64,000 nucleotides of DNA. Source: Membranipora membranacea (Eukaryota; Bryozoa; Gymnolaemata; Cheilostomatida; Membraniporidae). Positions 2,626 through 51,100 of this stretch are shown in pieces. Under the pieces are notes generated by a model. That model searched no databases. It was not told the origin of the DNA and was given only the letters and a program-made list of their open reading frames with translations. How positions within the stretch are numbered: position 1 is the first letter of the stretch; the number at the start of each line of letters is the position of its first letter. Location: positions 25,828,162 to 25,892,161 of the forward strand of contig OU612067.1 in the NCBI GenBank assembly GCA_914767715.1. The letters run 5' to 3'. A program made the position numbers and the translations under genes.

Positions 2626-2777
2626 TACACCTCATATAGCTAAGGCTACACAGTTAAGGTTCCGGGTGTGTCTCGCTTAATCTGCTCAGAGGGCAAGGTC
2701 AGGGTACATCCCGCTTCGCAACGTATACTATCAGATGTAAATGCACCCGCTACAAGCTCCGCTTGTAAGCTTCCCTA

Positions 2778-2956
2778 GACACCAGCTCTGCTGGGTTGGC
2801 TTCGCCACCAGTACGACCCTCAGTACACAGCTCTGTTAGGTTGGCTTTGCCACCAGTACGACCCTCAGTAAACAGCTCTGCTAGGTTGGCTTTGCCACCA
2901 GTACAACCCTCAGTAAACAGCTCTGCTAGGTTGGCTTGGCCACCAGCACGACCCTC
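2778..2956 (+). repeat. 43-bp minisatellite in LTR
   Basis: Four imperfect units built on ACAGCTCTGCTAGGTTGGC followed by CACCAGTACGACCCTCAGTA. The same array is seen in the other LTRs at about 34441-34590 and 41570-41745, with different unit numbers. Confidence 0.8.
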
Positions 2957-3115
2957 TCTAGGCTGAAGTTATCTATCCAGGAGTTCTCTACCCAGGAGTT
3001 ATCCTCTCTCGGCTCATTCATGGTGATTGTTTCGCTAGATACAGTTAGCCTGAAAACCAAACCTTAGCAAGGTAACGGCCAGGTGTTCCACCCTTTTGAT
3101 ATTTCCCGTACCACA

Positions 3116-3175
3116 ACAGCAATTTTCTGAGCTAGTCGATTCGACCAGCTTTAAGAAGTTATGAGCCATTGTGGT
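3116..3175 (+). repeat. 60-bp flank repeat X (copy 1)
   Basis: The 60 bp immediately after the left LTR (beginning ACAGCAATTTTCTGAGCTAG) recur right after the 3' LTR at 41909-41968 and, unexpectedly, right before the 5' LTR at 33770-33829. Far too long for a target-site duplication. Confidence 0.75.
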
Positions 3176-3229
3176 ATATTCAGTAACGTGAAAGTTGAAC
3201 AATGACAGAAAGATTGCAGATAAAATTAC

Positions 3230-3595
3230 TCACCACATGATTGGGTTAGGATGGTAGCACTTCCCATGTCTCATCCATGGAATCAGTTTCTTTTTAACTA
3301 AAACGTCTAGGTTTGAGGAATGATTTAGACCATATATGCTAGCTTTGTTGGCTCCATCTCCTGTAATACAGTCCTTTCTTTTTCTAGGAGTGTTTCCCTG
3401 TTTTACATCCAAACACTTGCACTGTAGGGGAATGTAGTCCTGCTGTTTTTCTAGATTTGGCTTGTTTGGATTTGTATTGTTTATCATAATAATATCACCT
3501 TGTTTTGATGAGTTTGAGCTTTCCCAGATTCTCAACCAGTGCTTGAAGGCAGGACCTAACTGTTCTGGAGTGCACCAACCAATCCGCGGATCCAT
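3230..3595 (-). CDS. Hypothetical conserved exon (unrecognised)
   Basis: Open frame of about 120 codons on the minus strand, Lys/Asn-rich with Cys and His scattered (QCKCLDVKQ, HGKCYHPNP). It ends ATC ATG TG followed directly by GTGAGT, a good donor, so it looks like an internal or first exon rather than a complete gene. The retrotransposon LTR begins about 115 bp downstream, so the next exon may have been cut off. It is kept open in the duplicate at 42023-42394, where a 21-bp (7-codon) in-frame difference occurs between short GCA repeats. I recognise no family; the start is not defined. It could be a fragment of a transposon gene. Confidence 0.35.
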   Translation of the reverse strand: MDPRIGWCTPEQLGPAFKHWLRIWESSNSSKQGDIIMINNTNPNKPNLEKQQDYIPLQCKCLDVKQGNTPRKRKDCITGDGANKASIYGLNHSSNLDVLVKKKLIPWMRHGKCYHPNPIMW

Positions 3596-4492
3596 AAACC
3601 AAAAGGTTTCGAAATTGTGGACAAAGTTTCACCAGCTGGGTGTGGTGGGTGGGTCTGTTCGTTTACAAGTGAGAATTGAATCTAACGAGATTTATGTGCA
3701 CGCATGCGTGAATTTATCAGGACTATACGGGGTACGACCAGTTGGCCCCAGCTAATAATTATAATAAATTTGCAGGAACTCGTTCTACATAATAATGTTT
3801 ATTCCAGGGCAAAATAATAGGAGTCGGTCAATGATAAGTGTGATGTACTATCAGAGGATTTTAATTGGCTGAGTCTTCAAGTAATTGCCAAGTACATAAA
3901 AGGTAACCTCGGTTTAAGCAGAACACACGTGCTTGAAAATGTGATTCGGAGAACTAAGTGAGGGTAACTCCTAGAAATATATACGAACCAAGTTACCAAA
4001 CTCAATATAATTTCTAGCAGGGAGGCCCCCACCATTCTCCCTGCCCCCACCCTCCCTGAGTCTTGCCATATTTTCTGATGATTTTTAAACAACAATTTTA
4101 TGAGAGAAAGAGGAGACGGTATGTGAAAGTATAACGCAGTGACAAAGATATATAGCAGGCTGCAGCTTGAATGCATGTTACTTCTTTTTACTAATTACTA
4201 TAACTGAATGAACATCTTGAAAGGATACTGGGGAGTATAAAATCCTGTGTGAAGACGTCAAATATGCTGAAAGGTGCCAATATTGAAGAGCGTAAGTATA
4301 AGTGATGGCAGAAGAATAATGTCACTATTTAGACTTCCATTATGGAATGGAAATAAGATGATGTTGTCATGCCAGCCAATGCACATGCACAATGCAGCTG
4401 CCTACTTGTTGTCTTTTGTTTTGCGAAAGGGGTTAAACATATGTTTTAGTGCATTGAAACGGAACCAGATGAAAATGTCACTGGAAGCTGTG

Positions 4493-4650
4493 AGCATACC
4501 TGACAAGTTAGCTGGGCGCTATATCTGGTGGTGCATCACCTTGCGGGTGGGATGGTCTGAGGGACACTGAAAGCCTCCCGCCGATGGCACAGGGCAGCAC
4601 CCAAGCCGCCAAAGCTCTTAGTGGTGGATAACTAAAATTTTCCCAATTCT
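4493..4650. repeat. GC-rich block identical in both duplicates
   Basis: A strikingly GC-rich stretch (CTGGGCGCTATATCTGGTGG ... GCCTCCCGCCGATGGCACAG) in otherwise AT-rich DNA. It looks unchanged, by eye, in the duplicate at about 43281-43440, while flanking DNA differs at several percent. It may be a SINE core or a structured RNA; no tRNA, 5S or snRNA signature was recognised. Confidence 0.35.
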
Positions 4651-4853
4651 AGCAAGTTAAACAACTTTCAAACTAAATGGAATTGGTAATAATAGGTTAT
4701 AATAGGTAGAAAACTAGACCTCATCTCAGTTGACTATGCAAACAAAATTTCGCTAAGCTCTTAGGCGCATAAGTGGGGTGGTTATATGGTTGTCTGGTAT
4801 CATATGGTAATCAGTTCAAATATCTGGTGATACCCTATCAAATAGGGCTGGAA

Positions 4854-4889
4854 GCAGGGAGGTTGGGACCAAGCTCCAAAACTCCCTGC
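4854..4889. repeat. Hairpin GCAGGGAG...CTCCCTGC (copy 1)
   Basis: Inverted repeat with arms GCAGGGAG and CTCCCTGC and an imperfect inner stem. The counterpart at 43640-43675 is a longer, nearly perfect 15-bp stem, and a related palindrome lies at 16989-17014, so this is a small dispersed palindrome family. Confidence 0.6.
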
Positions 4890-5928
4890 TCGAAGTGAGG
4901 ATCTGAGATTGCAGCATGTAGTTATCTACACATATCAAATGAAAGGATAACTCCAAAAATTATTAAAACCTCATAACCATAAGAATCCTTGTAGAAACCT
5001 GTATTTGACAGAGGTAAATCAAGTTTGTTCCCTCTGCGGTGGTGAAGTGATAATTGCAAAATTCATGTATCGAGGCGCTCTACCACAACACACTTATGTG
5101 GCTTTAAATATTCCTCCAGATCAGCAGAAGCACATGTTCTAGGATGGAGGCGCTTCTAGCATTTCAACATTTCTGTCTTTGGATCATGTTTTGGCAGTTT
5201 TGACATTGAAATTTCAAGGATGTTGCACTTAAGAACTGTGAGTGCCGTGCCAATAACTTATTACGTAAATGTAGCTTATTAAGGTCAGAAGGATAATTTT
5301 GTACATAAATTTGATTTCTGATTGGATATTTCAGCTGGCGTAGTATTAAGAAATAGTCTCAAATTCTGCGTGCATACCCTATTACCATTACCTTACCTAA
5401 GAGAAGCTATGTCAATGTTATGCTTATCCTAATATATTTTATTTGTTGTGGATAGAAATGACCAAAGTAATATCACATGATATGTAGTAGAAAGTAAAAC
5501 GATCAGATAGAAATAATTCTCAAACTTGGTCAATCTAATAAAAATGGATTCGATCCTGCTGATTGCTGGTCTGGTATGTTTGTGAGATATAAAGTATATA
5601 CATCATTACAGGGAACATCGTACAGTGATAGAGCCCCCATAAACATTTTCAGAAGTATGGTCAACAAGAGCAAGTGTAAAAAAAATGGTTTGCAGCATAT
5701 CGGCTAAGTAATTGATGGCGCCATAACATATATGAGCGGAGCAGTTATGCAGTGTAGCAATTATCAAAAAGTAAAAAACTACCTTTGAACAAAGCAACAA
5801 AAACATGGAGCTAAATGTCCAACTTATTACAGAGCACTCATAATAGAAGGATGTCACTGACAAAAATTGTGATTCAGTTTACAGTATGAATCACATTCAC
5901 TCTGAGTTGGCGAGTTTACTATACACAA

Positions 5929-6306
5929 TCACTTTGTTCTATAACCAAGCTTCTGAAGAAGACTTTCCTTAGTAGACTTATTGTTACACTTTGTAGTGTT
6001 TCGTTTGTCTACTGCTGGACGGAGTATGAGCATCTTCTGCAGAGTGCTTCGTTCTTCTGGGTCCTGGCTGTAACCTTTCTTCTTCATACACCTGATTGCA
6101 TTCGTTGTCATGTCACGCATTGATGTTTTGCCATCAGCTTGCTTAATCTGATCAGCAATAGCACCAAGGAATGCTCCTCTTTCTGACATTCCTCCAACTA
6201 CTGTTGAAATCAATAACAGAGTGTGCGCCCTGTCCAGTACTATGCTATTTCGCTGGCTTGTGGAGAGACCAGAATATACGGGTTGACAAGCCTGAATTAT
6301 GACCAC
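5929..6306 (-). CDS. Gene A last exon: caspase catalytic Cys and p10
   Basis: The exon starts right after an acceptor (TTTTACAG) at 6307 with codons reading VVIIQACQ, matching the caspase active-site segment IIQAC; the Cys codon is 6288-6286. The GTG here is an internal Val, not a start. A short linker ending SIVLDRAH leads into a p10-like part with LLLISTVVGGMSERGAF and a long helix (FLGAIADQIKQ), ending in a basic tail at a TGA stop at 5931-5929. Unlike most caspases there is no long interdomain linker, so it may act as a single chain. The usual QACRG is QACQP here. Arg in MSERG may correspond to the substrate-pocket Arg of caspases. Confidence 0.82.
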   Translation of the reverse strand: MVIIQACQPVYSGLSTSQRNSIVLDRAHTLLLISTVVGGMSERGAFLGAIADQIKQADGKTSMRDMTTNAIRCMKKKGYSQDPEERSTLQKMLILRPAVDKRNTTKCNNKSTKESLLQKLGYRTK

Positions 6307-9300
6307 CTGTAAAATTCAATCATAGATATGTGTTGAATTTGTTAAGTCTTCAGACTCAGACATCGTAGAGGTAAGTTCTAAGTCGAAGTGATAACTAAAA
6401 GTCTCAAACACAGGGGAGGACGATTAACGGATAGTAACATTGTAACTAATTTGTACTTTGATCCACACAGCGGATATCCTGGTGCTATCTCCACAATATC
6501 CAGTTATGATCCAATTTATGTAAATACATTCTAAGATAAACCTCACATTAACCTACCAATGGGATGTTTGCAGGTAGCCTCGCCTTCAGCAGATCTAGAA
6601 TATTCGATATCGGCATTTTAGAGTCATTGGCACCTGCTAGATTTCCAGCTTCTCCGTGTGACATCAGCGAGACAACAAGTAGTGAGAGGCCTTCAGATAG
6701 CAGCTTACAGAGCTCACTATCGATGATGGGAGGTAGCGTCTTCGCATCAGTCCATTCGAATAAGCTGGTCGTGATCCCAACATGCGTTAAGCTGTCTCCG
6801 ATGGCGTTAGCCTCCTCAGTAGCACCCTCTCTCTGATCTGTACTATACAGCACTAATCCAAACGACTTGACATGAGTCTGCATGATTGGTATGATGTACT
6901 GATCACTTCTATCAAAGAGCAGACTGATATCTTCTGTGTTTAGTGGGTGTTTCTCTACAAGCTCCTTCAGTGTCTTCGCCTCACCTGATCAAAATCACAT
7001 CATTCAAATGATAGTTTTAACCAGTTATATACTTCGTATAGCTCATCTGGGCATGGCCACAGTATAATAAGCGTATAATTCTCAGTTTTTTATTTTTTTA
7101 TCAAAATTGAAGACTGGAAAAGATATAAATAGCAGGGTACGATCAACATTGCTGCCCTTAATGCTGTAAATATTTTATGCATATTTTAAACTTACTTGAT
7201 AAGTTGATGTTTGAAACATACTGCTTGAGCACATCCTGTCCCTTTTCAACAACGACTGAACCTGAAGTGGAGATAATTGGGTGTTTAAAGCTGCTGATAG
7301 AGAGACCAAATATTCATTGATTCATTGTGTAGAGTGAGCAAAGCTTAGATGCGTGTTAACACATCGATTCTAAAGTGGAACACCGGAGCCACTCCCATAA
7401 ACCTCACATGTTCTCTATTCCATTCTAGTTCTTGTTCTGAAAATCGGCCCAGGGAGTGTGAAAATGAAGACCAATTACATTTTAGTGCAAAAATATAGAT
7501 CTTTTAGCACTCATGTCGGAATAAATCAGCAAATTTCGATACTCTTCAGGTATATTTGATTCATGAATATCTACTCACATGGATACCTCAGCGGTGTTGG
7601 GATATCAGCATCCTGTGCACAGCTGAAAACCTCATCCCCACTGTAGATGTTACGAGCTGGTTCATTGGCTGCTAGAGTTTCTGTTTGGGACCAGGAGGGA
7701 TCCACTTCTGTATGAGGAGACGGGTTGCTTGTAAGTAAGCAATGTGAACAATAGAAAACAGTCTCATAACGGACTCCTTTCCAAACAGATTTCAGCTCAG
7801 CAATCAGCTGTTGAAGAGAAGCCAGTTGTTTTGTCCAAGCCTCAGTGACGTTTTTAGGAAGAGCGAGAGTCAGTAGTGTGACACGGTTGTCAGAAGCATT
7901 GTGCAGCAGGTATTTCTGTATTCTGTTGCTTTGGGATACAACAGCACCATTAGTACCAACAGCAGGAGAAGAGAATAGCTCGGAATTTTTATCCAGATAT
8001 GCCGCTGTGATTAGTGAGAACACGTAGCCTGGAACTTTAAGACCACGCAGGTATAGATCTACTTTAAGAGGTATACGGTTAGTAAAATCCCCTGGCGCTT
8101 TGATCTCTCTAGAGGCAAAGTATGGTATGATGTATTTCTGATCACATGGTCTAGCATCTGGCCCACATAGATGGACTAGGTGAAATGATCTCAGAATTTC
8201 CACTGCAGCATCAGCTGGTAGTTGTGATTCTTTCTCCAACATATTTATGAGTAAAGCTGCTTCCATGACCCCAGACCTATTGTAAGTCGTTATCATATCC
8301 TGATATTTATATTCTCCTATTGACTTGCCGTCATGTTCAAAAGGGATAAAGTTATCCAAACGGGTCGACCAGTCTTTATCATGGGTGTGGCTATAGAGGA
8401 TTTCTATCAGGCCAGTTATGATCTGGTGGCGGTGGAAGACATAACAGGAGAGCTTAGGATTGTTTTTGAACCACATCAGTCGTCCGATTTCATGTAGATA
8501 TTCCAGGGTCACGTGATCAGGGTCATTGGGGAACTTGATATCAATCTCTGAAAGTTTGATAAACGGCTTGGTTGTTTCTGACTCGATATCAACAAGCATA
8601 ACATACCAGCTGCCAGGTATTTCAGTATTCAATACGGCGCCTACAGCTACCAGCATTTCTTTGAGTGAGTCAATATCAGGTTTAGATGATTTGGTCGAGA
8701 AACCTGAAATCATATTAACCCTTATCAGAAGCTCTGAAATGTCAGTGAAGCTTTTCATGATGAAAATTGGACTCAGGGATGATGCCACATGTGTTTCGGA
8801 CTTGATTATTTTGTGGCGTAATTTCTCGGTTGTGTCAATAAGCTGCTGTTTCCTCAGATTGTAGCACTCATCAGATATCTTATCACAGTGAGTCAGAACT
8901 ACTACTGGTCGACAGAGAGTAGGACAAGCTATGTACATGTGGGACAGCCAGTCGAGGCAAACATCCTGACATGCAGCTTCCTCTCCCTGCTGTACTACTA
9001 ATCTGTCAAACTCTGCAATGTCTATCACAAGGAGTGGAACACTTTGCGACTTAAATGACAGTTGGTAGGCAAAGTTATAGATTTTATGCCCTCCAAAGTC
9101 AACAAAGACCAGCTTAGTGTTTTGGTCGACAGCTGCCTCACAGACTTTGAATACTTTGGTAGCCTCATCTAACATCCCTCCAGTAGATAGTCGTGATGTG
9201 AGTACTCTTTTGTTCTGCTGAACACTCTTCACTAGACTTGTTTTCCCTGCTTCACTCTTTCCGATAACAGTCACAGGTATGAATCGCAGATTACTACCTT

Positions 9301-12300
9301 TTTCCAATTTTAGGTCTGAATAGTATTTTCTCACAGCAGTCACACCCAGTTTGCAGACAGCATATGGAGGAGATGTTAGTGCAGTACAGCCAACACAGTG
9401 AAAAGTTGTGAGTGTTTTGATGCTGAACAGGCTCTCAGGTAGTGTGATGAGTGATGAGTTATTACGGATAGCCAGTGTACGAAGGTTACTCAGCTCTCCT
9501 ACGCTGCAAAAATAAATTATGTTTTTTACTTAACGAGGAAAATCTACGATCTTCACTGTGTATGTATTTTTTACTTGCTGAACGAAAATCTCCATTTGCA
9601 TTTGCATCATTAAAACTCTTTTGCTTTTTTGTTCTTTACTTGTCGGATAACCATGTTTTGGTTATGGTAGGTAGTAATGAGTCAGAAAATATACTTAAGA
9701 CTGTCCGCTATATCTTTAGTCCTTAATTTAGCATATTGCCGAATCCTGGTGTCAAGTAGTGATGGGCGAGTTCGAGTTCAAAACTCGTTGGGGTGAGTTT
9801 GTGTGGGCGAGTTTGTGTGGATTCGATTTCGAGTTCAGGCCATTGGGCGAAAACATAGAGTTATTATATACTCTAGAGTGAACAATGTGTACAAAAAGAG
9901 CATCAGTTTTTGTCCTAATTAATGATTGCGAAATCCATGACACAACGCAATCTGGTTGTGCATGGCTAGTGCCTGCATCATATAACTTATCATTGAGAAT
10001 ATACGTAACGTGCATGGAAATTTAGATTTTTAGAACGCTTATAGCTATTTCTTTCGGAAATTTTTTTGTGTTACACTATGTGGATCACTTGCAGGTATTT
10101 TCACTCGCTGCCAGTGGAATATGTTTCAATGTTTTCCCATTGAAATAAGCCAAAATCTCAACCGCAAACACATCATTGTGATGAAATAGAAATTACCTGA
10201 CTTAGCTCATTTGATATTTGATTAAAAGAGGTACAAGTAGACTGTGTAGAGTGATCGGAGGTGTAAAAATAGTGTATATGATGTTGATGTTTACATTTAC
10301 AAATAAACAACCATCAAATAAAATTACATCACACCCATCTCCTCATCGGTGAGAGAGCGAAATTATATCGGCTTTCTCAGCACTTATATAACCATATTAA
10401 TATCTGTCTTGTTGGTAGAATTTTCTAAAAGTTGGTAGATCGCAGAGATTCGGACCAATGATAAGGCATCATTGGTTAAATGATTTTAATTCACATTGTA
10501 TACTAATATATGTACCTAAAGATGAAATATTATTAAAGCCTCTAATTACGCCCTCTGTACTCTTCTCAACTGAAGATTGGTGTTGCAAAGACGAAATATT
10601 ATGGTGTTCTCTCCATAATTTGTTGCAACTGATAACTGACTGCCATTTTCATATAATCAATCTTGACAGGTATGTATCTTGAGTTGTCCATTCGACGTTT
10701 TCTTGATATTCAGCGACTCAGCAGAAGAGTTTATGCATTTTTTGATGTGTTGGCTTGAATAGTTTCGGCAATAAAAAATCGAGTGGCCACCCCGGAGAGG
10801 GAATTAAGAGCTTTAAACGGCATAGCCAAACAAAAACGCGAGATCTTTGGGCAGAAAATTTTTGAACCACGGGTTACTTGCACGCCTTGTATAATTGGAA
10901 GTCATAATACTGGACAGATAAAATGAACTCACTGAGTGTAAAACATTTTAGTAAGAGATACAGGACACAGTTAAACTGGCAGGCAAGTGGCAGGGGCAAA
11001 AACCGGCTAACCTGGTATTGTGATTTTATCGCTATGATGTGTTGGCGGTTGAGATTTTGGTGTTTTAAGGGGATAACACAAATCTTTTTATCCCCTTACT
11101 GCTAAGAAACCAATTGCAAGTGGTCTTATAGTGTGACATGAAAAGTTTACAAATATATTGCTAAAAATGCTCTAAAAGCGATAAAGGCAAGCAGCAAGCT
11201 TTTTCACCTCCAATTGTTTTTCCACAGGCTACTTGTACCACATGTTATCACAAATCAATAGTATCAATCAGTAGCTGGAACTGAACAGTTAAAAAAAACC
11301 GACTGAGTGTGCAACAGACAGGACACAGTGGCAAGTGGCAGAAACGAGCTAGTCCTGTCATTGCGATTTAGCTCATGTGTTTGCGGTTGATAGTTGACTT
11401 ATTTTAATGGGGAATAGGAAAATTTTTATTCTGACTGGAAGAGAGAACACCTGCAGGTGATGTAAATGGTGTTAAATGTGAAATTCTCTGATGAAAATGG
11501 CTATTAGTGCTCCATAAACTAAATTTGTTTGTCCAATTCTAATATTTTCAATGGTTAAGTCAATGATTTGTCCACTATCCTATAGAGATTTTGGCTTATT
11601 TTTATGGGAAAAAATAGAAAAATTTTCCTCTGGCTGCGAGTGAAAATTCATGCAAGTGATCCACATAATGTCACTTGAAAAAAATTCCGAAAAAATAGCT
11701 ATAAAAGCTCTAAAAACCTATTTCTCTATTCTATTCTCAATGATAAGTTATACGATACAGGCACTAGCCGGCACAACCAGATTGCGTTGTGTCATGGATT
11801 TCGCAATAATTAAGTAGGACGTTTTTAGCACTGCGTTGTCCACTCTAGAGTATATAATAACTCTATGGGCAAAAATGACTTGGCAATTAATATATTCAAG
11901 ACTAACTTCTAGTTATATAGAAATAGAGGGCATTGGATATCCTACATTCCATTTCTACATTTATTCAAATTTATATTGATCATCAGACTGAGAATAGCAG
12001 GTACATACTCACCACTCAGGTAGTTGTTTGAGGGCACAGAAGCTCACACTCAACTTTCTCAGTGATCTCAGCTCACACAGCCACTCAGGTAATGTGTGTA
12101 GAGCTCCATTATCTGATACATCTAATACCTCCAGCTGAGTCAGTGACCTGATACTGTAATATATACATGTATATATATCATAATACATCATGTGAGATGA
12201 GGAGCAGGATCCACCCCATTTCTTCTATCTCATTTTCGCACCAGCCCGTTAGATAGTAACGGCTGAACAACATTAGTAATTATTCTACAGACAGATAATT

Positions 12301-15300
12301 TTTAGTTTGCATCCATACTATGCAGCCTTACAATACGTCATAGCTGGCAGGAAGGCAACCTATTTTTTCATCACTTTATTTTTTAAGTTATTTATGTATT
12401 TATTTTATGTATTCATTTTATTTTATGTAGTTATTTTAAGTTATTTATGTGATAATTTGAGTTATTTAAGCCATTTATGTCACATCATGAAAAACTGTCG
12501 AACAACTTGATTACTACATTAGTTATTAATGGAGGATTATAATTTTATATTTGAATCCTAAAATCTAAAATTCAGACAGATGTTTGGTAAATTCCAATGT
12601 GAAAGCTAATTTATTGGAATGTAGAAATAAAAGATAATATAGTTATCGTTATCAACCCTAGACATTATTCTTAAACTTGACAGATATCTCAAGTCTGAAT
12701 CCTTTTGATTATGTATCGCTGGTAAAAGACAACCTGTTTATTCACTTTAGCTTAGTTATTTATATTTCACAGCCTTTTCAAAGGTAAGGATTATTGAAGA
12801 AATAAAAAACAAATTATCAATCGACTCGACAGACTCACCACTCAGGTAGCTGTCTGAGATCACAATCTCTAACACGTAACTCCCTCAGTGCTCTCAGCCC
12901 ACACAGCCACACAGGTAATGTGTGTAGAGCTTTATTACCTGAGGATTATGCTGATTGACCTGAATTTTTAGAGCTACCTACTCTCTGTGATTCTATTTCT
13001 GAGATGTCTAAAACTGTTTTTAACAATATTGTGTCCAATGAAGACTATCCTCTTTTTAGTTGTGTTGTTTTTAACTGTGCAAAGGTATCCGCTTGCCTAC
13101 ATACCATCTATCGCCCACCAAAGTGCAGGACTCAAAAGCGTTTAAAGAGCTTTTTTCCTTACCACATGTCAGCTTTCAACAAAGTTTAAATTTCTCATTT
13201 TCATGTACCAATCCAATTTTATCGCTTGCTGATACATGGATTAAAATAATAAACCTAACCTAACCTAACCTAATGGCTGGTTCACATTGTCCCAGATGAC
13301 ATTGGGATGCCATCCCAGATGCTTATCCCAGATGGTCCCAGTCTTATGTTCACATTATAAAATTCATCCCTGACAAGCAGTTAGGTTTTTGTCTGGGATA
13401 GTGCTGGGATGATGTTCACATTGTTAAGGATGGTCCCAGATAGTCTCAGATCGACCCAGATCATCCAAATGTCTGGTTCACATAGCACCCAGATGCAAAA
13501 TGAGTCTGGGTATGTCTGGGACAGCATCGGGAAAGTTTGACGCTTACGAACTTTCCAGATACTGTCCCAGACGGACCCAGACAGTCTGGGATTGTGTCAT
13601 TTTCATGTTCACATTGACTGGGATGGCTATCTGGGATGGTCGTCTGGGACAATGTTCACCAGCCATTATGGCTGGTGCACATTGTCCCAGACGACCATTC
13701 CAGATAACCTAACCTAACCTAACCTAACCTGATACATTTAATACCTCCAGCTGGGTCAGTGAACTGATGATGTAATAAATATACATGTATATTAATACAT
13801 CATGTGAGATGAGGAGCCAGATCCGCCTCATTTCTTCTATCTCATTTTCGCACCAGGCCGTTATCCCACCTCCCGTTATCCCATGAAGCCATTTCCCCCT
13901 GGATGAGTTACCATGCTGCCATTTTCCTGCTTGGACAATTTCTCACCAATCCATTTTTCCAGCAAGACATTTTCAGTTTGGGCTGTTTTCCGAACAAGCC
14001 ATTTTTCCTCCAAGAAAAGATCCAAATGGACTGTTTTCTCACCAAGACAATTTATCACACCATGCAGTTTTTCCCGGCATAGTTTTTTTTAACATATATT
14101 AACAGTTTTCACGTCCAGCCAACGTTGTAAAAAGCAGTTTGGGTAATGGACCTGTGAGTTGATTTCATTGATATAGTTTGTGGATTTTGTTTCGAGTTTT
14201 CCAGCGCACAAGTAATTGTACAACTGACTGATTTCAACAAGATGGCCTCAATGTTATAAAATACTTTCTCAGCAAAACTTTATTGTGCCTATAGCCTTTT
14301 CTGTACCAGTCAGAGAAGAACTGCGAGATCATATTAGTGTAATTGAATAAATTACTGACCAATGGGCAGAATATAAATTAGGGCATTAGGCCATTTTTTC
14401 ACACGCCACTTTGCTACTACACATTGTTCAAAAGTTGTACAGCATTCTTCGAGCCATGTGTCTTGCTGAAGAGATATCTGGTAAGTGCTGACAAGGTTAT
14501 TGGCATAATCCCTCTTTAAAATGAAGCTTACACCATGTGTGTACACTGCATGGCTTGACCATGCATGTTAAAGTTTGTTGTACTAATTTTCAAGCTATTA
14601 TCAATAACCACCAAACAATGTAAGGAAAATTAAACTCCTTTTGGGGTTTGAGGCTACAATCTTTTCCGAGACAAGCTTTATCAAACTTTGAATTGTTTCC
14701 TCTTGTAAAGAGAAGAGATAACCGCTTAAAATCAGAAAGGCAATTTGTGAAGACCAATGAGCATGAGCATTAATAATTCCGTTGAAGAATCTGTCCTATC
14801 AAATAAGGGTGGCCATTTATTGTAGGCCAGACACAGATGATGTCTGGTAATCTATACTTACATAACTTGTCATTGAACTTTGCGAAGAGTTTTCCGAGTG
14901 GCAAATGGGATTTCGCCAAACAAAAATTAATAAACACCTTTAGAACAAAAAATATCAACCTAATTTTAAGTAATCGTCCGATCCTTCCAAATCACTTTGA
15001 AGTACATCAGACGACATCTGAAACTGAATCTCATGAAGATGAGAGGAGTTGAGAAATTTAGTGTATGAATTCAAAGCATCCAATTTTGAGAGATACAGCA
15101 GAAACTCATTTAAAACAACTTAGAGGGGTTCAATTACTTGTAATGACAGGTATTCTAAAAGTGAATCTTAGTGACCATAAAACTCTTTGTTTTCAAAAGA
15201 AAACATTTACAAAAAAGGGATAAAGAGGCACGTTACAGAGGGATGATTAATGCATGCCTTCTTGTTTACAAGAAAAGGCACAGCTGTGATCTATTTCTAT

Positions 15301-16798
15301 GAGAATTGTTCTACATGGTCACTGTGCTCGCTGTCTACCGGGATCCCTTGGGCTCTTCACCTGCTTCACTAGGAATTAAGCTATAGGTCTGCCCACTCTC
15401 CCCTAGAACTCACTCTGTATTGGTAACATTAATATTGATTGGATACAGAATATTATTTAGAGTCAATTCGCTCCAGAAGGAGGCTGTAGCGAGTTGATAA
15501 AAAACCAATGATTTTATAATCTCATTGGCGGATAAAAATATGAATTTTATGTAGATCACATTCATGTTAAAATACAATTCGGCATGTGTGTACATTTTTC
15601 GTTCACAAAAATCCTAGAGATATAAAGAGTAATTATTGATAATTTTATGACAAAGGCCCCTTAGGGATGAACACAACCAAACCTAACTATGCTTCATTAA
15701 AATGAATTGCACACAAGGTGTGGTAAAACAAGAATTATTCTTGAAATACTGCTAGGTGGGAGAATGACTTGCTGGGATGACGGGAGGTTGGAAAATGGCT
15801 TGGAAGGGAAAATGATATCGAAAAATTGTCCGAATACTGAAGAGCCATGCAAACAAATTTCATCGTATATCATTAGCATATACTAACAAGTTACCCAAAG
15901 TTGTACTTAACTGTGAAGTGGTTCAGTTACAAAGTAGAATATTTAGGAGCTTTCAATAATAAGGCAACAACAAAATTAAAGTTTACAGCCTTCTAAAACA
16001 TTTAACAGGAATAAATGGACAATATTAAGATCTTTCATCGGAAATAAAATCTATATTGATCAACAGACTGAAGATAACAGGTACAGACTCACCACTCAGG
16101 TAGGTGTTTGAGGTCACAGAAGCTCACACGTAACTCTCTCAGTGATCTCAGCTCACACAGCCACTCAGGTAATGTGTGTAGAGCTCTATTACGTGATACA
16201 TATAATACCTCCAGCTGAGTCAGTGACCTGATACTGCAATATACATATAGCTGATTGTATGAATATTAGTTTAATATTTCATTATCCTGACAAAAAAATG
16301 GGATCAGAGGACGATATCATCTATCAGGGTGTCTGTTACATCGTCATGCTCTCTGACCAGGATCATGAATTCTGTCTGGAGGTCAATTATGATAATGAGA
16401 TTCAAATTCATAATGATATCTATACAATCTGGGTAATTTCTAACCTTGGCAAATTGTCAGAAAATGAGTTTTCATGACGGTGTAATTTTGCCTTTTTTGA
16501 GAGTAATACAGGCATATCAAAAAGCGGAGTTGTCTCAGCACTGATACCATAACTCACTTCTGTAGCTGACCACTGTTTGGTATGTCTTCCAGTTTGATCT
16601 CTCTCAGGTTAGCGGCTATCTTATCTAGGTTAGGTGGGATATTACCCTTAATGTACATATGTGTGATCTCCAGTCCTTGTGTAGCTGCTGATAACTCATC
16701 AGGTGTATATGATATGAGATGTCTATCGCTTAATGTATAGGGAATGCGATCAATGTCTGGCTCTGAGGTATGACGGTACCAGATCTTATACTTAGAAC
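5929..16798 (-). CDS. Gene A: LRR-Roc-COR-caspase fusion (multi-exon)
   Basis: Exons in transcript order: 16798-16558 (LRR cap), 16233-16093, 13763-13729 with 12938-12839, 12153-12013 (LRR pairs), 9503-7579 (last LRRs, Roc, COR), 7261-7196, 6984-6557 (caspase p20), 6306-5929 (p10, stop). Every junction has GT-AG sites and matching phase, giving about 1150 codons. LRRs are expected to bind a ligand or partner, Roc-COR is a GTP-dependent dimerisation switch in ROCO proteins, and the caspase would be the effector; this functional chain is inference from the domains. No signal peptide or membrane segment was seen, so it is probably cytosolic. The true 5' end is unknown; two phase-compatible upstream exons may exist at 19426-19195. 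The tandem paralogue is gene B at 44730-61939. Confidence 0.8.
6557..6984 (-). CDS. Gene A exon: caspase p20 with catalytic His
   Basis: Begins GT GAG GCG after an acceptor and ends ATC CCA TTG before donor GTAGGT, phase 0. After a helical lead-in (TLKELVEKHPLNTEDISLLF) comes a caspase p20 fold: GLVLYSTDQ, then QREGATEEANAI, whose Arg sits where caspases carry the S1 Arg (SRSGTDxDA type), then LLVVSLMSHGEAG with the catalytic His (codon 6658-6656). The spacing to the QAC in the next exon, about 35 residues, is that of true caspases. Paracaspases and metacaspases look less alike here. Confidence 0.82.
7196..7261 (-). CDS. Gene A 66-bp linker exon
   Basis: A short exon between COR and caspase encoding SVVVEKGQDVLKQYVSNINL. 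Acceptor CTTCAG and donor A|GTAAGT are good, and it begins with two bases and ends with one, matching both neighbours. A second possible acceptor (GGTTCAG) six bases in would also keep frame. No domain recognised; the duplicate is 46063-45998. Confidence 0.7.
7579..9503 (-). CDS. Gene A exon: last LRRs, Roc GTPase and COR
   Basis: A 1925-bp exon. It opens (acceptor TTTTTGCAG) with VGELSNLRTL and a final LRR, then the linker SPPYAVCKLGVTAVRKYY that typically joins LRRs to Roc. Numbering from Val at 9343, Roc has the P-loop GKSEAGKT (28-35), DFGGH (82-86, switch II) and THCDK (151-155, base recognition). COR follows with GRLMWF, a winged-helix-like region, and ends around ETVFYCSHCLL. This is the ROCO family arrangement; no kinase follows. 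The donor is CCAT|GTGAGT, so the frame running into TGA after it is intron. The exon is almost identical to 48305-46381 in gene B. Confidence 0.93.
9757..11880. mobile_element. Left part of hAT-type element, right end lost
   Basis: Begins TAGTGATGGGCGAGTTCGAG preceded by GTGTCAAG (9749-9756), the same left terminus as at 48558. The matching right terminus (GCCCATCACTA) present at 53193 is absent here; after about 11880 the sequence switches to DNA related to 55735, so the element is truncated by a rearrangement. It sits in an intron of gene A and contains a nested foldback element. Confidence 0.6.
9854..11867. mobile_element. Foldback DNA element, copy 1 (8-bp TSD)
   Basis: About 2.0 kb. It starts CATAGAGTTATTATATACTC and ends with the inverted form. 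The arms stay complementary for several hundred bases, for example around GGATTTCGCAAT and the AATGATAAGTTAT region. Flanks are GGCGAAAA (9846-9853) and GGCAAAAA (11868-11875), an 8-bp target duplication with one mismatch. No transposase is seen, so it is non-autonomous. Confidence 0.8.
12013..12153 (-). CDS. Gene A two-LRR exon, intact
   Basis: 141 bp between acceptor TTACAG and donor TG|GTGAGT. It encodes one 24-residue LRR (IRSLTQLEVLDVSDN...LPEW) and one 23-residue LRR (LCELRSLRKLSVSF...LPEC). Both flanking introns are phase 2, so this exon can be duplicated or skipped without changing frame. Confidence 0.85.
12839..13763 (-). CDS. Gene A two-LRR exon split by intron-like insertion
   Basis: The 5' part (13763-13729) encodes SLTQLEVLNVS; the 3' part (12938-12839) encodes GNKALHTLPVW...LRQLPEC. 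Between them lies a 790-bp insert (13728-12939) starting GTTAGG and ending CCTCAG, so splicing would restore VSGN. In this copy the usual acceptor (TTACAG) is changed to TTACAT. The next AG, seven bases on, also keeps frame and loses two codons, giving 135 coding bases instead of 141. Confidence 0.65.
12939..13728. mobile_element. Inserted retroposon-like repeat acting as an intron
   Basis: On the plus strand the insert runs from GGATTATGCTGATTGACC through a conserved part of about 290 bp (ending AATAATAAA) into an (AACCT)n tail, a MITE, then more (AACCT)n. It is flanked by ACCTGA on both sides, which looks like a 5-6 bp target-site duplication. The tail, polyadenylation-like AATAAA and duplication suggest retroposition. 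A small plus-strand frame at 13004-13189 is kept in copies at 55022 and 61574 but matches nothing I recognise. Related inserts lie at 57392-57785 and 61509-61898. Confidence 0.6.
13271..13668. mobile_element. Palindromic MITE
   Basis: About 398 bp with terminal inverted repeats TAATGGCTGGT...ACATTGTCCCAGA and their complement, and many internal GTCTGGGA/TCCCAGAC motifs in both orientations. It lies inside the (CCTAA)n tail of the insert. A partial terminal copy follows at 13669-13706. The related inserts at 57.7 and 61.85 kb have only the short terminal fragment. Confidence 0.75.
13890..14075. repeat. Degenerate short tandem repeat
   Basis: Intronic run of imperfect CCATTTTTCC.CCAAGA-type units. 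It is preserved in the duplicated units at about 57950-58120 and 62060-62220, where it gives spurious open frames on both strands. The rest of 14080-16080 holds duplicated intron DNA without a recognised gene. Confidence 0.5.
16093..16233 (-). CDS. Gene A first two-LRR exon, intact
   Basis: 141 bp, acceptor TTGCAG, donor TG|GTGAGT, encoding IRSLTQLEVLYVSRN...LPEW and LCELRSLRELRVSFCDLKHLPEC. Same phase-2/phase-2 design as the other LRR exons. It follows the cap exon at 16798-16558. Confidence 0.85.
16558..16798 (-). CDS. Gene A exon: N-terminal cap before the LRRs
   Basis: 241 bp between acceptor TTTTACAG and donor AA|GTGAGT, encoding SKYKIWYRHTSEPDIDRIPY, then GLEITHMYIKGNIPPNL and LREIKLEDIPNSGQLQ, which has the look of an irregular first LRR or cap. 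It begins with two bases (phase 1 junction upstream) and ends phase 2, as the LRR exons require. Clean open frame. No counterpart for gene B is seen within the window. Confidence 0.7.
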
Positions 16799-34756: not shown

Positions 34757-34851
34757 CATAATTACAAAGGCACGGAGGTTATCGTTGGAGCGGACTCGAC
34801 GATACCCGCCCTCAGCCAGGTCGCTTATTCGAACAATCCACTACTGTCAGC

Positions 34852-35937: not shown

Positions 35938-35969
35938 TAGGGAATGGGACTCAGAAACATAAACTGTCT

Positions 35970-41908: not shown

Positions 41909-41968
41909 ACAGCAATTTTCTGAGCTAGTCGATTCGACCAGCTTTAAGAAGTTATGAGCCATTATGGC
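41909..41968 (+). repeat. 60-bp flank repeat X after the 3' LTR
   Basis: Counterpart of 33770-33829 and 3116-3175. Confidence 0.8.
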
Positions 41969-42022
41969 ATATTCAGTAACGTTAAAGTTGAACAATGACA
42001 GAAAGATTGCAGATAAAATTAC

Positions 42023-44729: not shown

Positions 44730-45107
44730 TCACTTTGTACTATAACCGAGCTTCTGAAGAAGACTTTCCTTAGTAGACTTATTGTTACACTTTGTAGTGT
44801 CTCGTTTGTCTACTGCTGGATGGAGTATGAGCATCTTCTGCAGAGTGCTTCGTACTTCTGGGTCCTGGCTGTAACCTTTCTTCTTCATACACCAGATTGC
44901 ATTCGTTGTCATGTCATGCATTGATGTTTTGCCATCAGCTTGCTTAATCTGATCAGCAATAGCACCAAGGAATGCTCCTCTTTCTGACATTCCTCCAACT
45001 ACTGTTGAAATCAATAACAGAGTGTGCGCCCTGTCCAGTACTATGCTATTTCGCTGGCTGGTGGGGAGTCCAGAATATACAGGTTGACAAGCCTGAATTA
45101 TGACCAC
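44730..45107 (-). CDS. Gene B last exon: caspase catalytic Cys and p10
   Basis: VVIIQACQPVYSGLPTSQ; Cys codon 45089-45087. By eye about seven amino-acid and four silent differences from gene A across 378 bp, including Arg-to-Trp in NAIWCMKKK. Same stop. Confidence 0.82.
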   Translation of the reverse strand: MVIIQACQPVYSGLPTSQRNSIVLDRAHTLLLISTVVGGMSERGAFLGAIADQIKQADGKTSMHDMTTNAIWCMKKKGYSQDPEVRSTLQKMLILHPAVDKRDTTKCNNKSTKESLLQKLGYSTK

Positions 45108-48100
45108 CTGTAAAATTCAATCATAGATATGTGTTGAATTTGCAAAGTCTTCAGACTCAGACATCGTAGAGGTAAGTTCTAAGTTGAAGTGATAACTAAA
45201 AGTCTCAAACACAGGGGAGAACGATTAACGGATAGTAACATTGTAACTAATTTGTACTTTGATCCACACAGCGGATATCCTGGTGCTATCTCCAGAATAT
45301 CCAGTTATGATCCAATCTATGTAATATACATTCTAAGATAAACCTCACATTAACCTACCAATGGGATGTTTGCAGGTAGCCTCGCCTTCAGCAGATCTAG
45401 AATATTCGATATCGGCATTTTAGAGTCATTGGCACCTGCTAGATTTCCGGCTTCTCCGTGTGACATCAGCGAGACAACAAGTAGTGAGAGGCCTTCAGAT
45501 AGCAGCTTTCTGAGCTCACTATCGATGATGGGAGGTAGCGTCTTCGCATCAGTCCATTCGAATAAGCTGGTCGTGATCCCAACATGTGTTAAGCTGTCTC
45601 TGATGGCGTTTGCCTCCTCAGTAGCACCCTTTCTCTGATCTGTGCTATACAGCACTAATCCACATGGCTTTACATGAGTCTGCATGATTGGTATGATGTA
45701 CTGATCACTTCTATCAAAGAGCAGACTAATATCTTCTGTGTTTAGTGGGTGTTTCTGTACAAGCTCCTTCAGTGTCTTCGCCTCACCTTATCAAAAACAC
45801 ATCATTCAAATGATAGTTTTAACCAGTTATATACTTCGTATAGCTCATTTGGGCATGGCCACAGTATAATAAGCGGATAATTCTCAGTTTTTTATTTTTT
45901 TATCAAAATTGAAGACTGGACGAGATATTAATCGCAGGGTACGATCAACATTGCTGCCCTTAATGCTGTACATATTTTATGCATATTTTAAACTTACTTG
46001 ATAAGTTGATGTTTGAAACATACTGCTTGAGCACATCCTGTCCCTTTTCAACAACGACTGAACCTGAAATGGAGATAATTGGGTGTTTAAAGCTGCTGAT
46101 AGAGAGACCAAATATTCATTGATTCATTGTGTAGAGTGAGCAAAGCTTAGATGCATGTTAACACATCGATTCTAAAGTGGAACACAGGGGGCACTCCCAT
46201 AAACCTCACATGTTCTCTATTCCATTCTAGTTCTCGTTCTAAAAATCGGCCCAAGGAGTGTGAAAATGAAGACCAATTACATTTTAGTGCAAAAATATAG
46301 ATCTTTTAGCACTCATGTCGGAATAAATCAGCAAATTTCGATACTCTTCAGGTATATTTGATTCATGAATATCTACTCACATGGATACCTCAGCGGTGTT
46401 GGGATATCAGCATCCTGTGCACAGCTGAAAACCTCATCCCCACTGTAGATGTTACGAGCCGGTTCATTGGCTGCTAGAGTTTCTGTTTGGGACCAGGAGG
46501 GATCCACTTCTGTATGAGGAGACGGGTTGCTTGTAAGTAAGCAATGTGAACAATAGAAAACAGTCTCATAACGGACTCCTTTCCAAACAGATTTCAGCTC
46601 AGCAATCAGCTGTTGAAGAGAAGCCAGTTGTTTTGTCCAAGCCTCAGTGACGTTTTTAGGAAGAGCGAGAGTCAGTAGTGTGACACGGTTGTCAGAAGCA
46701 TTGTGCAGCAGGTATTTCTGTATTCTGTTGCTTTGGGATACAACAGCACCATTAGTACCAACAGCAGGAGAAGAGAATGGCTCGGAATTTTTATCCAGAT
46801 ATGCCGCTGTGATTAGTGAGAACACGTAGCCTGGAACTTTAAGACCACGCAGGTATAGATCTACTTTAAGAGGTATACGGTTAGTAAAATCCCCTGGCGC
46901 TTTGATCTCTCTAGAGGCAAAGTATGGTATGATGTATTTCTGATCACATGGTCTAGCATCTGGCCCACATAGATGGACTAGGTGAAATGATCTCAGAATT
47001 TCCACTGCAGCATCAGCTGGTAGTTGTGATTCTTTCTCCAACATATTTATGAGTAAAGCTGCTTCCATGACCCCAGACCTATTGTAAGTCGTTATCATAT
47101 CCTGATATTTATATTCTCCTATTGACTTGCCGTCATGTTCAAAAGGGATAAAGTTATCCAAACGGGTCGACCAGTCTTTATCATGGGTGTGGCTATAGAG
47201 GATTTCTATCAGGCCAGTTATGATCTGGTGGCGGTGGAAGACATAACAGGAGAGCTTAGGATTGTTTTTGAACCACATCAGTCGTCCGATTTCATGTAGA
47301 TATTCCAGGGTCACGTGATCAGGGTCATTGGGAAACTTGATATCAATCTCTGAAAGTTTGATAAACGGCTTGGTTGTTTCTGACTCGATATCAACAAGCA
47401 TAACATACCAGCTGCCAGGTATTTCAGTATTCAATACGGCGCCTACAGCTACCAGCATTTCTTTAAGTGAGTCAATATCAGGTTTAGATGATTTGGTCGA
47501 GAAACCTGAAATCATATTAACCCTTATCAGAAGCTCTGAAATGTCAGTGAAGCTTTTCATGATGAAAATTGGACTCAGGGATGATGCCACATGTGTTTCG
47601 GACTTGATTATTTTGTGGCGTAATTTCTCGGTTGTGTCAATAAGCTGCTGTTTCCTCAGATTGTAGCACTCATCAGATATCTTATCACAGTGAGTCAGAA
47701 CTACTACTGGTCGACAGAGAGTAGGACAAGCTATGTACATGTGGGACAGCCAGTCGAGGCAAACATCCTGACATGCAGCTTCCTCTCCCTGCTGTACTAC
47801 TAATCTGTCAAACTCTGCAATGTCTATCACAAGGAGTGGAACACTTTGCGACTTAAATGACAGTTGGTAGGCAAAGTTATAGATTTTATGCCCTCCAAAG
47901 TCAACAAAGACCAGCTTAGTGTTTTGGTCGACAGCTGCCTCACAGACTTTGAATACTTTGGTAGCCTCATCTAACATCCCTTCAGTAGATGTTCGTAATG
48001 TGAGTACTCTTTTGTTTTGCTGAACACTCTTCACTAGACTTGTTTTCCCTGCTTCACTCTTCCCGATAACAGTCACAGGTATGAATCGCAGATTATTACC

Positions 48101-51100
48101 TTTTTCCAATTTTAGGTCTGAATAGTATTTTCTCACAGCAGTCACACCCAGTTTGCAGACAGCATATGGAGGAGATGTTAGTGCAGTACAGCCATAACAG
48201 TAAAAATCTGTGAGTGTTTTGATGCTGAACAGGCTCTCAGGTAGTGTGGTGAGTGATGAGTTATAACTGATAGCCAGTGTACGAAGGTTACTCAGCTCTC
48301 CTACGCTGCAAAAATAATTTATATTTTTTATTTAATGAGGAAAATCTACGATTTTCACTGTGTATGTTTTTTTTACTTGCTGAACGAAAATCTCCATTTG
48401 CATTAGCATCATTCAAACTCTTTTGCTTTTTTGTTCTTTACTTGTCGGATAACCATGTTTGGTTATGGTAGGTAGTAATGAGTCAGAAAATATACTAAAG
48501 ACTGTCCGCTATATCTTTAGTCCTTAATTTAGCATATTGCCGAATCCTGGTGTAAAGTAGTGATGGGCGAGTTCGAGTTCAAAACTCGTTGGGGTGAGTT
48601 TGTGTGGGCGAGTTTGTGTGGATTCGATTTCGAGTTCAGGCCATTGGGCAAAAACATAGAGTTATTATATACTCTAGAGTGAACAATGTGTACAAAAAGA
48701 GCATCAGTTTTTGTCCTAATTAATGATTGCGAAATCCATGACACAACGCAATCTGGTTGTGCATGGCTAGTGCCTGCATCATATAACTTATCATTGAGAA
48801 TATACGTAACGTGCATGGAAATTTAGATTTTTAGAACGCTTATAGCTATTTTTTTCGGAAATTTTTTTGTGTTACACTATGTGGATCACTTGCAGGTATT
48901 TTCACTCGCTGCCAGTGGAATATGTTTCAATGTTTTCCCATTGAAATAAGCCAAAATCTCAACCGCAAACACATCATTGTGATGAAATAGAAATTACCTG
49001 ACTTAGCTCATTTGATATTTGATTAAAAGAGGTACAAGTAGACTGTGTAGAGTGATCGGAAGTGTAAAAATAGTGTATATGATGTTGATGTTTACATTTA
49101 CAAATAAACAACCATCAAATAAAATTACATCACACCCATCTCCTCATCGGTGAGAGAGCGAAATTATATCGGCTTTCTCAGCACTAATATAACCATGTTA
49201 ATATCTGTCTTGTTGGTAGAATTTTCTAAAAGTTGGTAGATCGCAGAGGTGAGTGCAAATAAAAAGATTCGGACCAATGATAAGGCATCATTGGTTAAAT
49301 GATTTTAATTCACATTGTATACTAATATATGTATATGTATGTGTTCTCTCCATAATTTGTTGCAACTGATAACTGACTGTCATTTTCATATAATCAATCT
49401 TGACAGGTATGTATCTTGAGTTGTCCATTCGACGTTTTCTTGATATTCAGCGACTCAGCAGAAGAGTTTATGCATTTTTTGATGTGTTGGCTTGAATAGT
49501 TTCGGCAATAAAAAATCGAGTGGCCACCCCGGAGAGAGAATTAAGAGCTTTAAACGGCATAGCCAAATATCTTTGGGCAGAAAATTTTTGAACCGCGGGT
49601 TACTTGCACGCCTTGTATAATTGGAAGTCATAATATTGGACAGATAAAATGAACTCACTGAGTGGAAAAAATTTTTAGTAAGAGATACAGGACACAGTTA
49701 AACTGGCATGCAAGTGGCAGGGGCAAAAACCGGCTAGCCTGGTATTGTGATTTTATCGCTATGATGTGTTGGCGGTTGAGATTCTGGTGATTTAAGGGGA
49801 TAACACAAATCTTTTTATCCCCTTACTGCTAAGAAACCAATAATTTGCAAGTCGTCTTATAGTGTGACATGAAACGTTTACAAATACATTGCTAAAAATG
49901 CTCTAAAAGCGATAAAGGCAAGCAGCAAGCTTTTTCACCTCCAATTGTTTTTCCACAGGCTACTTGTACCACATGTTATCACAAATCAATAGCATCAATC
50001 AGTAGCTGGAACTGAACAGTTAAAAAAACAGCTGACAGGACACAGTGGCAAGTGGCAGAAACGAGCTAGTCCTGTCATTGCGATTTAGCTGATGTGTTTG
50101 CGGTTGATAGTTGACTTATTTAAATTGGGGAATAGGACAATTTTTATACTGACTGGAAGAGAGAACACCTGCAGGTGATGTAAATGGTGTTAAATGTGAA
50201 ATTCTCTGATGAAAATGGCTATTAGTGCTCCATAAACTAAATTTGTTTGTCCAATTCTAATATTTTCAATGGTTAAGTCAATGATTTGTCCACTATCCGA
50301 TAGAGATTTTGGCTTATTTTTACGGGAAAAAATAGAAACATTTTCCTCTGGCTGCGAGTGAAAATTCATGCAAGTGATCCACATAATGTCACTTGAAAAA
50401 AATTCCGAAAAAATAGCTATAAAAGCTCATACCCGATATGTATATTCTCAATGATAAGTTATACGATACAGGCACTAGCCATGCACAACCAGATTGCGTT
50501 GTGTCATGGATTTCGCAATATTTAAGTAGGATGTTTTTAGCACGGCATTGTCCACTCTCGAGTATATAATAACTCTATGGGCAAAAATGAGTTGGCAATA
50601 ATAGGAGTTATCATTGCATGGATATTGAGGGAGTGACTCCAAAAAGGATGTTGGCAATAATGGGAGTTATTATCATAGAGTTATTATATACTCTAGAGTG
50701 GACAATGCAGTGCTAAAAACGTCCTACTTAATTATTGCGAAATCCATGACACAACGCAATCTGGTTGTGCATGGCTAGAGCCTGTATCATATAACTTATC
50801 ATTGAGAATTTACGTACTGGGTATGGCAATTTAGATTTTTAGAGCGCTTATAGCCATTTTTTCGGGAAAAAATTTTTGTGACACCATGTGGATCACTTGC
50901 AGGTACTTTCACTTTCAATTTCATGACGCAAAAAAATCTGGTTGTGCGTGGATAGTGCATGAATCGTTGACTTTTTCATTTAAAAGATTAGAATTGGACA
51001 TACAAATTTAGTTTATGGAGCACTTATAGCCATTTTTTCAGAGAATTTCACATGTAACACCATTTACATTTAGATCACCTGCAGGTATTTCATCTTCCAG

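Follow-up and report, generated by a model that had tools for sequence, protein, structure and literature searches.

The window analysed here, 64,000 nucleotides of the genome of the bryozoan Membranipora membranacea, carries on its minus strand (chr3, OU612067.1:25834090-25844959) a series of exons (Table 1) which in-phase GT-AG junctions join into one predicted frame of 1154 residues, in a spliced model that lacks the first exon. The exon coordinates and motifs of the first-pass annotation proved right, and its junctions are GT-AG with matching phases. The P-loop GKSEAGKTS, DFGGH and THCDK all lie in exon B together with an LRR and COR, and SHGEAG and IIQAC lie in exons D and E, as had been claimed. 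The phases are 1 for B-C and C-D and 0 for D-E, and the exons upstream of B (16798-16558 through 12153-12013) also chain in phase into B. Both LRR cassettes were recovered by script, and a further LRR exon is split by a 790-bp insertion (13728-12939) that behaves as an intron. The N-terminal exon has a relative in paralog L017 (40% identity over 77 residues); no first coding exon or start codon was found upstream of 16798. Exon C was found by tblastn only in the six-copy clade of the window. A chance ORF is ruled out by the splice phases and the HMM matches, and a pseudogene at this position by the open frames and selection.

Table 1. Exons of the predicted ROCO-caspase gene and of its second copy in the window.
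Feature	Position	Strand	Basis
N-terminal exon of 80 codons (entry phase 1, exit phase 2) without a Pfam family	16558..16798	-	sequence reading
Cassette exon of 141 bp with two LRRs, phase 2-2	16093..16233	-	script recovery; Pfam LRR_8/LRR_4 in spliced protein
LRR exon, first part	13729..13763	-	sequence reading
LRR exon, second part	12839..12938	-	sequence reading
LRR cassette exon, 141 bp, phase 2-2	12013..12153	-	sequence reading and script recovery
Large exon B: last LRR, Roc GTPase, COR, Cys/His cluster (C..HC..C..C), phase 1 end	7579..9503	-	Pfam, structure model
Linker exon C, 66 bp, phase 1-1	7196..7261	-	sequence reading
Caspase exon D: p20 part, S1 Arg (QREGA), catalytic His (SHGEAG)	6557..6984	-	sequence, Pfam
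Caspase exon E: catalytic Cys (IIQACQ), intersubunit linker, p10 part, S1 Arg (SERG), stop	5929..6306	-	
Second ROCO-caspase copy, LRR-Roc-COR exon, 98% identical	46379..48304	-	tblastn coordinates
Second copy, exons C (46061-45999), D (45784-45359), E (45107-44733)	44733..46061	-	tblastn coordinates

The ROCO and caspase domains

LRR_8 is matched by Pfam in the spliced protein at 63.6 bits. Roc scores 28.1 and 27.4 bits (the latter in the spliced protein), barely over the cut-off of 27, with one modelled relative slightly below it at 26.1 bits, and COR-A falls below its own cut-off (15.7 vs 35.3 bits). A structure model of exon B (pLDDT 85) matches LRR-Roc-COR 6hlu (E 1.7e-17), RocCOR 3dpu and COR 3dpt in a fold search, and its best 22 PDB matches are all Roco, LRRK1 or LRRK2, with TM-scores of 0.30-0.54 by query length. 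On the strength of this model, COR appears to follow directly after Roc, placing the predicted protein among the Roco (LRR-Roc-COR) proteins. Judged by its P-loop and switch motifs a Roc domain is present, for which GTP binding and hydrolysis are predicted. At a limit of E <= 0.01 the spliced protein matches neither NACHT nor NB-ARC and by this test is not an NLR; its NTPase is Roc.

The first-pass assignment of the downstream exons to peptidase C14 was accepted by the HMM check: PF00656 scores 42.5 bits in the spliced protein against a cut-off of 21.4, covering profile positions 15-232 of 233, and of the two exons taken singly E passes (24.5) and D does not (16.5). A profile of five family caspases matches caspase-8 (E 3.3e-8), and in that alignment the S1 Arg of p10 falls on caspase-8 SYRN. 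In caspases, the S1 arginines and a Gln hold the P1 Asp, whereas an acidic pocket is the mark of metacaspases. All 20 sequences retain the [ST]HG and QAC motifs with their catalytic His and Cys, as well as the residues of the P1-Asp pocket, namely the Arg after GLVL[YF]xx[DE]x, the Arg in [SA]xRG and the Gln of QACQ. Profile, catalytic residues and S1 residues together point to a caspase (peptidase C14A) with predicted cleavage after Asp. The caspase exons are under purifying selection (dN/dS 0.15-0.40 in 19 of 19 comparisons). In the six-copy clade of the window, the intersubunit linker is 9-16 residues shorter than in relatives and lacks the D-A pair seen in 12 of 14 of them; the window-type p10 loop is shortened and its usual Trp is missing. 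Processing and activity may differ as a result. A search of the spliced protein, from which the first exon is absent, for CARD, DED, DD and PYD gave nothing at E <= 0.01, and with no death-fold prodomain in this model the protein does not look like a CARD/DED initiator caspase.

A large family and the question of one gene or two

The ROCO-caspase family is large and tandemly duplicated. The 69 scored copies of the ROCO exon are a lower bound, and the family comprises about 70 to 110 loci. A window-type last caspase exon lies downstream on the same strand in 48 of the 69 copies. Each of the 24 loci examined at the DNA level has a caspase after its ROCO exon; it is of the window type in 20 and of a second, more classical type in four, the evidence for this type being confined to these four sampled loci. 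The second type scores 106.7 bits for C14 and matches CED-3 (E 1.6e-19), and in the one such locus modelled it is joined to its own ROCO exon by seven in-phase junctions. LRR arrays differ greatly in length among copies, with open frames of up to 2442 aa. The second copy in the window (L024) is free of stops in its model, and in-frame stops occur in two of 19 paralog models (L023 and L036).

Computational analysis of these loci shows one gene that runs from an N-domain and LRRs through Roc, COR and a Cys/His cluster to a caspase at the C-terminus, in which the catalytic and P1-Asp-binding residues are intact. Nineteen paralogous loci contain both D and E. In each of them exons B and D are followed by a GT donor of the expected phase, and D and E are preceded at short distance by an in-phase AG (sought within 31 and 40 bases), while the B-D and D-E lengths take all three classes modulo 3, so that the agreement of phases exceeds chance. 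The single-gene reading of the first-pass annotation is thereby backed, as it is by the caspase in 24 of 24 loci and by six of the 19 D exons, whose open stretch has no Met ahead of the catalytic core. Two co-duplicated neighbouring genes, separately transcribed, would have to accommodate these observations, together with the one modelled locus where a ROCO exon is followed, in the same phase, by a caspase of the other type. In favour of two genes, an unspliced exon B runs into a stop after at most 2 codons in 16 of the 19 loci (4, 6 and 19 in the others), making a ROCO-only protein possible; the remaining 13 D exons do carry a Met ahead of the core; and the nearest annotated ROCO, from the bryozoan Watersipora subatra, stops near the exon B end with no C14 match. 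ROCO and caspase distances are closely correlated (r = 0.979 over 190 pairs), which fits a single gene but is also expected of linked neighbours. Overall, we regard two genes as very unlikely. The same low probability is given to a real fusion whose main product is a protease-free ROCO, with the caspase form as a minor isoform. In its favour, read-through past exon B soon meets a stop, after 19 codons in L018 and 2 to 6 in the other 18 loci; against it, selection on the caspase exons was purifying in each of the 19 comparisons and a caspase has been kept in all 24 loci examined.

Comparison with known architectures

The first-pass annotation knew of no ROCO with its own full caspase, and neither the protein searches nor the accessible open-licence literature supplied one. 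A full-length protein search returned 43 matches, none of them spanning more than 72% of the query or representing another ROCO-caspase, none of 2043 candidates scored in a search with the caspase region, and PF00656 was among the listed domains in none of 54 profile matches; these protein searches require shared 5-residue words, which leaves absence elsewhere unproven. In 15 aligned matches the ROCO part stops at or soon after the end of exon B, and P0001, P0006 and P0009 are 94-99% identical to Membranipora loci. No relative was found in viral contigs and no family in NCBIfam. In the accessible text of open-licence PMC papers on ROCO with caspase or on bryozoan ROCO, no ROCO-caspase fusion appears. 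We regard the predicted LRR-ROCO-caspase as a further ROCO topology.

In the MFHAS1-like first Roco group, and in the nearest annotated match, W. subatra P0034, LRRs are likewise followed by Roc-COR. P0034 shares 31-33% core identity, the Cys/His cluster and a ...PC end with the Membranipora family, which however runs on into the caspase. LRRK1/LRRK2 and DAPK1, of the second and third Roco groups, also combine the Roc-COR fold with an enzyme on the same chain, a kinase instead of a caspase; none of the three Roco topologies in the available portion of that source has a protease, and its text uses neither "caspase" nor "peptidase" (PMC6337361). The amphioxus TNFR-caspase, confirmed by cDNA, and LRRs-caspase hybrids similarly fuse a receptor-type domain straight to a caspase, but the text available reports no ROCO among them (ROC/COR, 0 occurrences) and no comparably large family (PMC2575513). 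In Aplysia, as far as the accessible text goes, ROCO is joined to TIR/MyD88-type proteins (PMC9334734), an adaptor domain and not a protease, and Mercenaria P0065 (Roc-COR-Death) carries a death signalling domain on a ROCO, again an adaptor instead of a protease. The NLR repertoire of the sponge Dysidea avara has CASc and COR in the domain list of a figure legend, but it is NACHT-based and the portion of the text available describes no LRR-Roc-COR-caspase (PMC12909245).

Possible function and its alternatives

The NLR inflammasome combines an LRR sensor, NTPase-driven assembly and a caspase-1 output in several proteins linked by CARD/PYD contacts, with a NACHT ATPase where the Membranipora family has Roc-COR. 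Caspases activate by proximity. We think it rather likely that the gene encodes a single-chain receptor-protease, probably cytosolic, with a sensor, a Roc-COR switch and a fused caspase; the first-pass annotation proposed such a chain, with a possible immune or cell-death role. In such a protein, the LRRs would bind a ligand of microbial, viral or self origin, this would alter the nucleotide state of Roc and hence the COR-driven oligomeric state, and the fused caspase domains, once drawn together, would be activated and could cut death or inflammatory substrates at Asp sites. One chain would thus do the job of an assembled inflammasome (NLR, adaptor and caspase-1). Bacterial Roco is, in the available part of the source, mainly a dimer when nucleotide-free or with GDP and a monomer with GTP (PMC5714945), so the coupling could run in either direction.

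The window-type caspase domain might instead be an inactive, regulatory relative. Its Pfam scores are weaker (42.5 bits in the window protein and 59.2 in L017, vs 106.7 for the second type), the Trp is lost and the loop and linker are shortened; the catalytic dyad and both S1 arginines are nevertheless present in 20 of 20 sequences, and we consider an inactive domain quite improbable. Bryozoan colonies regularly break down their polypides (cyclic degeneration), and a caspase output in a colonial animal of this kind would suit a role in programmed death during development, such as polypide breakdown, in place of defence. Family size and the variable length of the LRR array look more like recognition of changing ligands, which makes the developmental role unlikely, if less so than an inactive domain.

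If transcripts and protease activity are confirmed for the receptor-protease, each gene would be a self-contained alarm and executioner, giving the Roco family (LRRK2, MFHAS1, DAPK1) a protease-bearing topology and suggesting a route from sensor to death protease without adaptor domains. How the GTP cycle of Roco proteins is linked to output is debated, and a fused caspase would report the Roc-COR state directly. Bryozoan immune receptors seem little described: among the papers retrieved on bryozoan caspases and immune families none was on the subject by title, and those retrieved on bryozoan allorecognition name no gene in titles or abstract openings. The size of the family and the variability of its LRRs make it a candidate recognition repertoire. 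A bolder version, which we hold with as little confidence as the developmental role, is that bryozoans evolved ~70 to >100 tandemly duplicated single-chain inflammasomes with variable LRRs, built by shuffling LRR cassettes and caspase modules, as a main intracellular recognition system. In a colonial animal, such a system might also recognise foreign colonies once fusion has occurred.

Exon chain of the window gene and the question of one gene or two

The window gene lies on the minus strand and its exon chain was obtained by reading and splicing the genomic sequence, with every junction GT-AG and in phase. The spliced protein, 1154 residues long without the first exon, scores above the Pfam cut-off for Roc (27.4 bits against 27) and for Peptidase_C14 (42.5 bits against 21.4, profile positions 15-232 of 233); its LRR_8 match reaches 63.6 bits.

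Exons of the window gene (window coordinates)
Feature	Position	Strand	Basis
N-exon	16798-16558	-	read from sequence
LRR cassette exon	16233-16093	-	read from sequence
LRR exon, two parts	13763-13729 + 12938-12839	-	read from sequence
LRR cassette exon	12153-12013	-	read from sequence
Exon B, large	9503-7579	-	read and spliced
Exon C	7261-7196	-	read and spliced
Exon D	6984-6557	-	read and spliced
Exon E, terminates in stop codon	6306-5929	-	read and spliced

COR-A scored 15.7 on exon B, under the Pfam cut-off of 35.3. An AlphaFold2 model of this exon, built on a 43-sequence alignment, reached a mean pLDDT of 85.0 and a pTM of 0.83, and its best 22 PDB matches are all Roco, LRRK1 or LRRK2 chains. 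The top-ranked one is 6hlu, the Chlorobium tepidum LRR-Roc-COR protein, with E 1.7e-17 and a TM-score, normalised to the query length, of 0.51. C-terminal to COR lies a conserved C..HC..C..C cluster, common to the family and the nearest annotated ROCO match (P0034 of the bryozoan Watersipora subatra), which may bind zinc. A 790-bp insertion (13728-12939) with ggttaggtt-type repeats at its borders splits one LRR exon; judged from the sequence, splicing looks to remove it exactly, from GT to AG and without loss of frame. In the second copy, whose LRR-Roc-COR exon is 98% identical, LRR frames start at the same residue as after this split, which suggests that it is split likewise.

That the ROCO and caspase parts belong to two genes instead of one is the less likely reading. 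Read unspliced, exon B runs into a stop 2 to 6 codons on (19 codons at locus L018), and 13 of 19 D exons have a Met before the catalytic core, but in the other six it is missing. Against two genes, exon B ends in phase 1 at all 19 loci, with an in-phase acceptor before D and phase 0 between D and E, although acceptors were sought under the expected phase, over stretches of 31 and 40 bases, and this test was thus not blind. The phases match even though the B-D and D-E lengths across the 19 loci take every value modulo 3 (B-D counts exon C in the window clade, a group of six copies including the window gene). Exon C is phase-neutral, and tblastn with its 21 residues found matches solely in that clade; in the model of a locus with the second caspase type, an exon of the same phase occupies its position.

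Two caspase types behind the ROCO exons

A genome search with exon B scored 69 of 338 candidates, and every one of the 69 matched along all or almost all of the exon, with identities of 48-100%; the figure is a lower bound. Searching for the Roc family yielded 148 matches, many short and non-ROCO; by hand count ~43 of them do not overlap the 69 and have an open frame of 350 codons or more, which brings the total to ~110 ROCO-type exons. Judged by the best 58 of 150 exon-E matches, 48 of the 69 copies are followed on their own strand by such a match at up to 12 kb, in 46 cases at up to 4 kb, and 21 are not. Exons D and E follow the ROCO exon in order at 19 of 20 fetched paralogous loci, and a caspase of either type was present at all 24 loci examined, which include the window copy, 3 of the 21 copies and one distant copy.

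Exon D carries the p20 part with SHGEAG, and exon E IIQACQ and the p10 part; exon D alone did not reach the Pfam C14 cut-off. The catalytic His, QACQ and both predicted P1-Asp-binding arginines are kept in all 20 sequences (window and 19 paralogs). A five-sequence family profile matched caspase-8 (E 3.3e-8), its p10 Arg aligned with the Arg of SYRN. Departures from a textbook caspase include a shortened p10 loop and the loss of the usual Trp. The QACQ-p10 linker is 15 residues long in the six members of the window clade versus 24-31 in the other 14, and a D-A pair within it occurs in 12 of those 14 and in none of the six. At locus L031 the caspase ends in a hydrophobic stretch, which could be a membrane anchor.

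A different, more classical caspase lies downstream of the ROCO exon at all four loci sampled (L045 to L048), which lack the window-type caspase: the twentieth fetched paralog, two more of the 21 copies and one distant copy on chromosome C9, whose ROCO part shows 29% identity across 320 residues. Exons c3 to c7 of this caspase type occur in order at all four, the C9 copy included. The single locus modelled has seven exons behind the ROCO exon and seven in-phase junctions, and its protein scores 106.7 bits for C14 and matches CED-3 (E 1.6e-19).

The caspase exons are under purifying selection: their dN/dS was 0.15-0.26 in comparisons with 14 distant copies, where dS is saturated, and 0.30-0.40 in those with 5 close copies. 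For exon B it was 0.09-0.18 in 12 of 14 distant comparisons, the other two not being computable, and 0.46-0.90 among close copies, reflecting weak constraint or too few changes.

Relation to known receptors and a proposed mechanism

In the accessible text of the sources, a Roco review lists three topologies, none with a protease (PMC6337361), amphioxus has TNFR-caspase hybrids, backed by cDNA, and LRRs-caspase hybrids, which are suggested to link recognition to cell death by a shortcut (PMC2575513), Aplysia has ROCO fused to TIR proteins (PMC9334734), and bacterial conflict systems contain caspases and COR-bearing GTPases (PMC7159879; PMC8195603). Because no ROCO-caspase fusion was found in the accessible text of the literature searched for it or in protein-sequence searches, we rate the Membranipora protein as an additional Roco topology and as a receptor-caspase hybrid of a new kind, in one species so far.

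Caspases become active once brought together. According to the available text of one study, bacterial Roco is mainly a dimer when empty or GDP-bound and a monomer with GTP (PMC5714945). Combining the two gives a model in which a ligand would bind the LRRs, the Roc state would change, assembly would proceed through COR, and the activated caspase would cleave death or inflammatory substrates; the ligand, the direction of switch coupling, the activity, the substrates and an immune role are presumed in this model, whereas the component domains and their order, the retained active-site residues, the selection and the size of the family come from the sequence analysis.

Duplication and possible module shuffling across the genome

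The window lies on chromosome 3 (25828162-25892161). The genome note, in its accessible text, gives 339.4 Mb, 21 scaffolds and a 14.7-kb mitochondrial genome (PMC10290214); the assembly copy searched has 18 contigs and 339.3 Mb. Of 237 candidate relatives of exon E, 150 were scored; they occur on all eleven chromosomes, many away from ROCO exons, and amount to a large expansion of caspases in this species. LRR architecture varies between copies: window copies use 141-bp cassettes of two repeats each, and at six other loci the LRRs share one open frame with exon B (749 to 2442 aa). Window-type caspase exons also lie downstream of clear ankyrin repeats at locus L051 (Ank_2, 49 bits) and of a weak ankyrin match at L050 (17.4 bits, under the cut-off), read as adjacent, unspliced frames, making both possible ANK-caspase proteins. 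Since these frames are neighbours and not spliced models, module shuffling is an inference.

Within the window, 1-15459 and 39285-63544 form a tandem segmental duplication in pieces (e.g., 2611-10514 and 41402-49333 share 97% identity). Plus-strand frames at 34762-40503 and 2-1219, downstream of the two gene copies, are taken to be LTR-retrotransposon-like, with putative reverse transcriptase and integrase assigned by motif. Repeats may help the tandem duplication. Within the second copy, 55269-55530 is an (AACCT)n array of ~52 units that resembles an interstitial telomere-type repeat.
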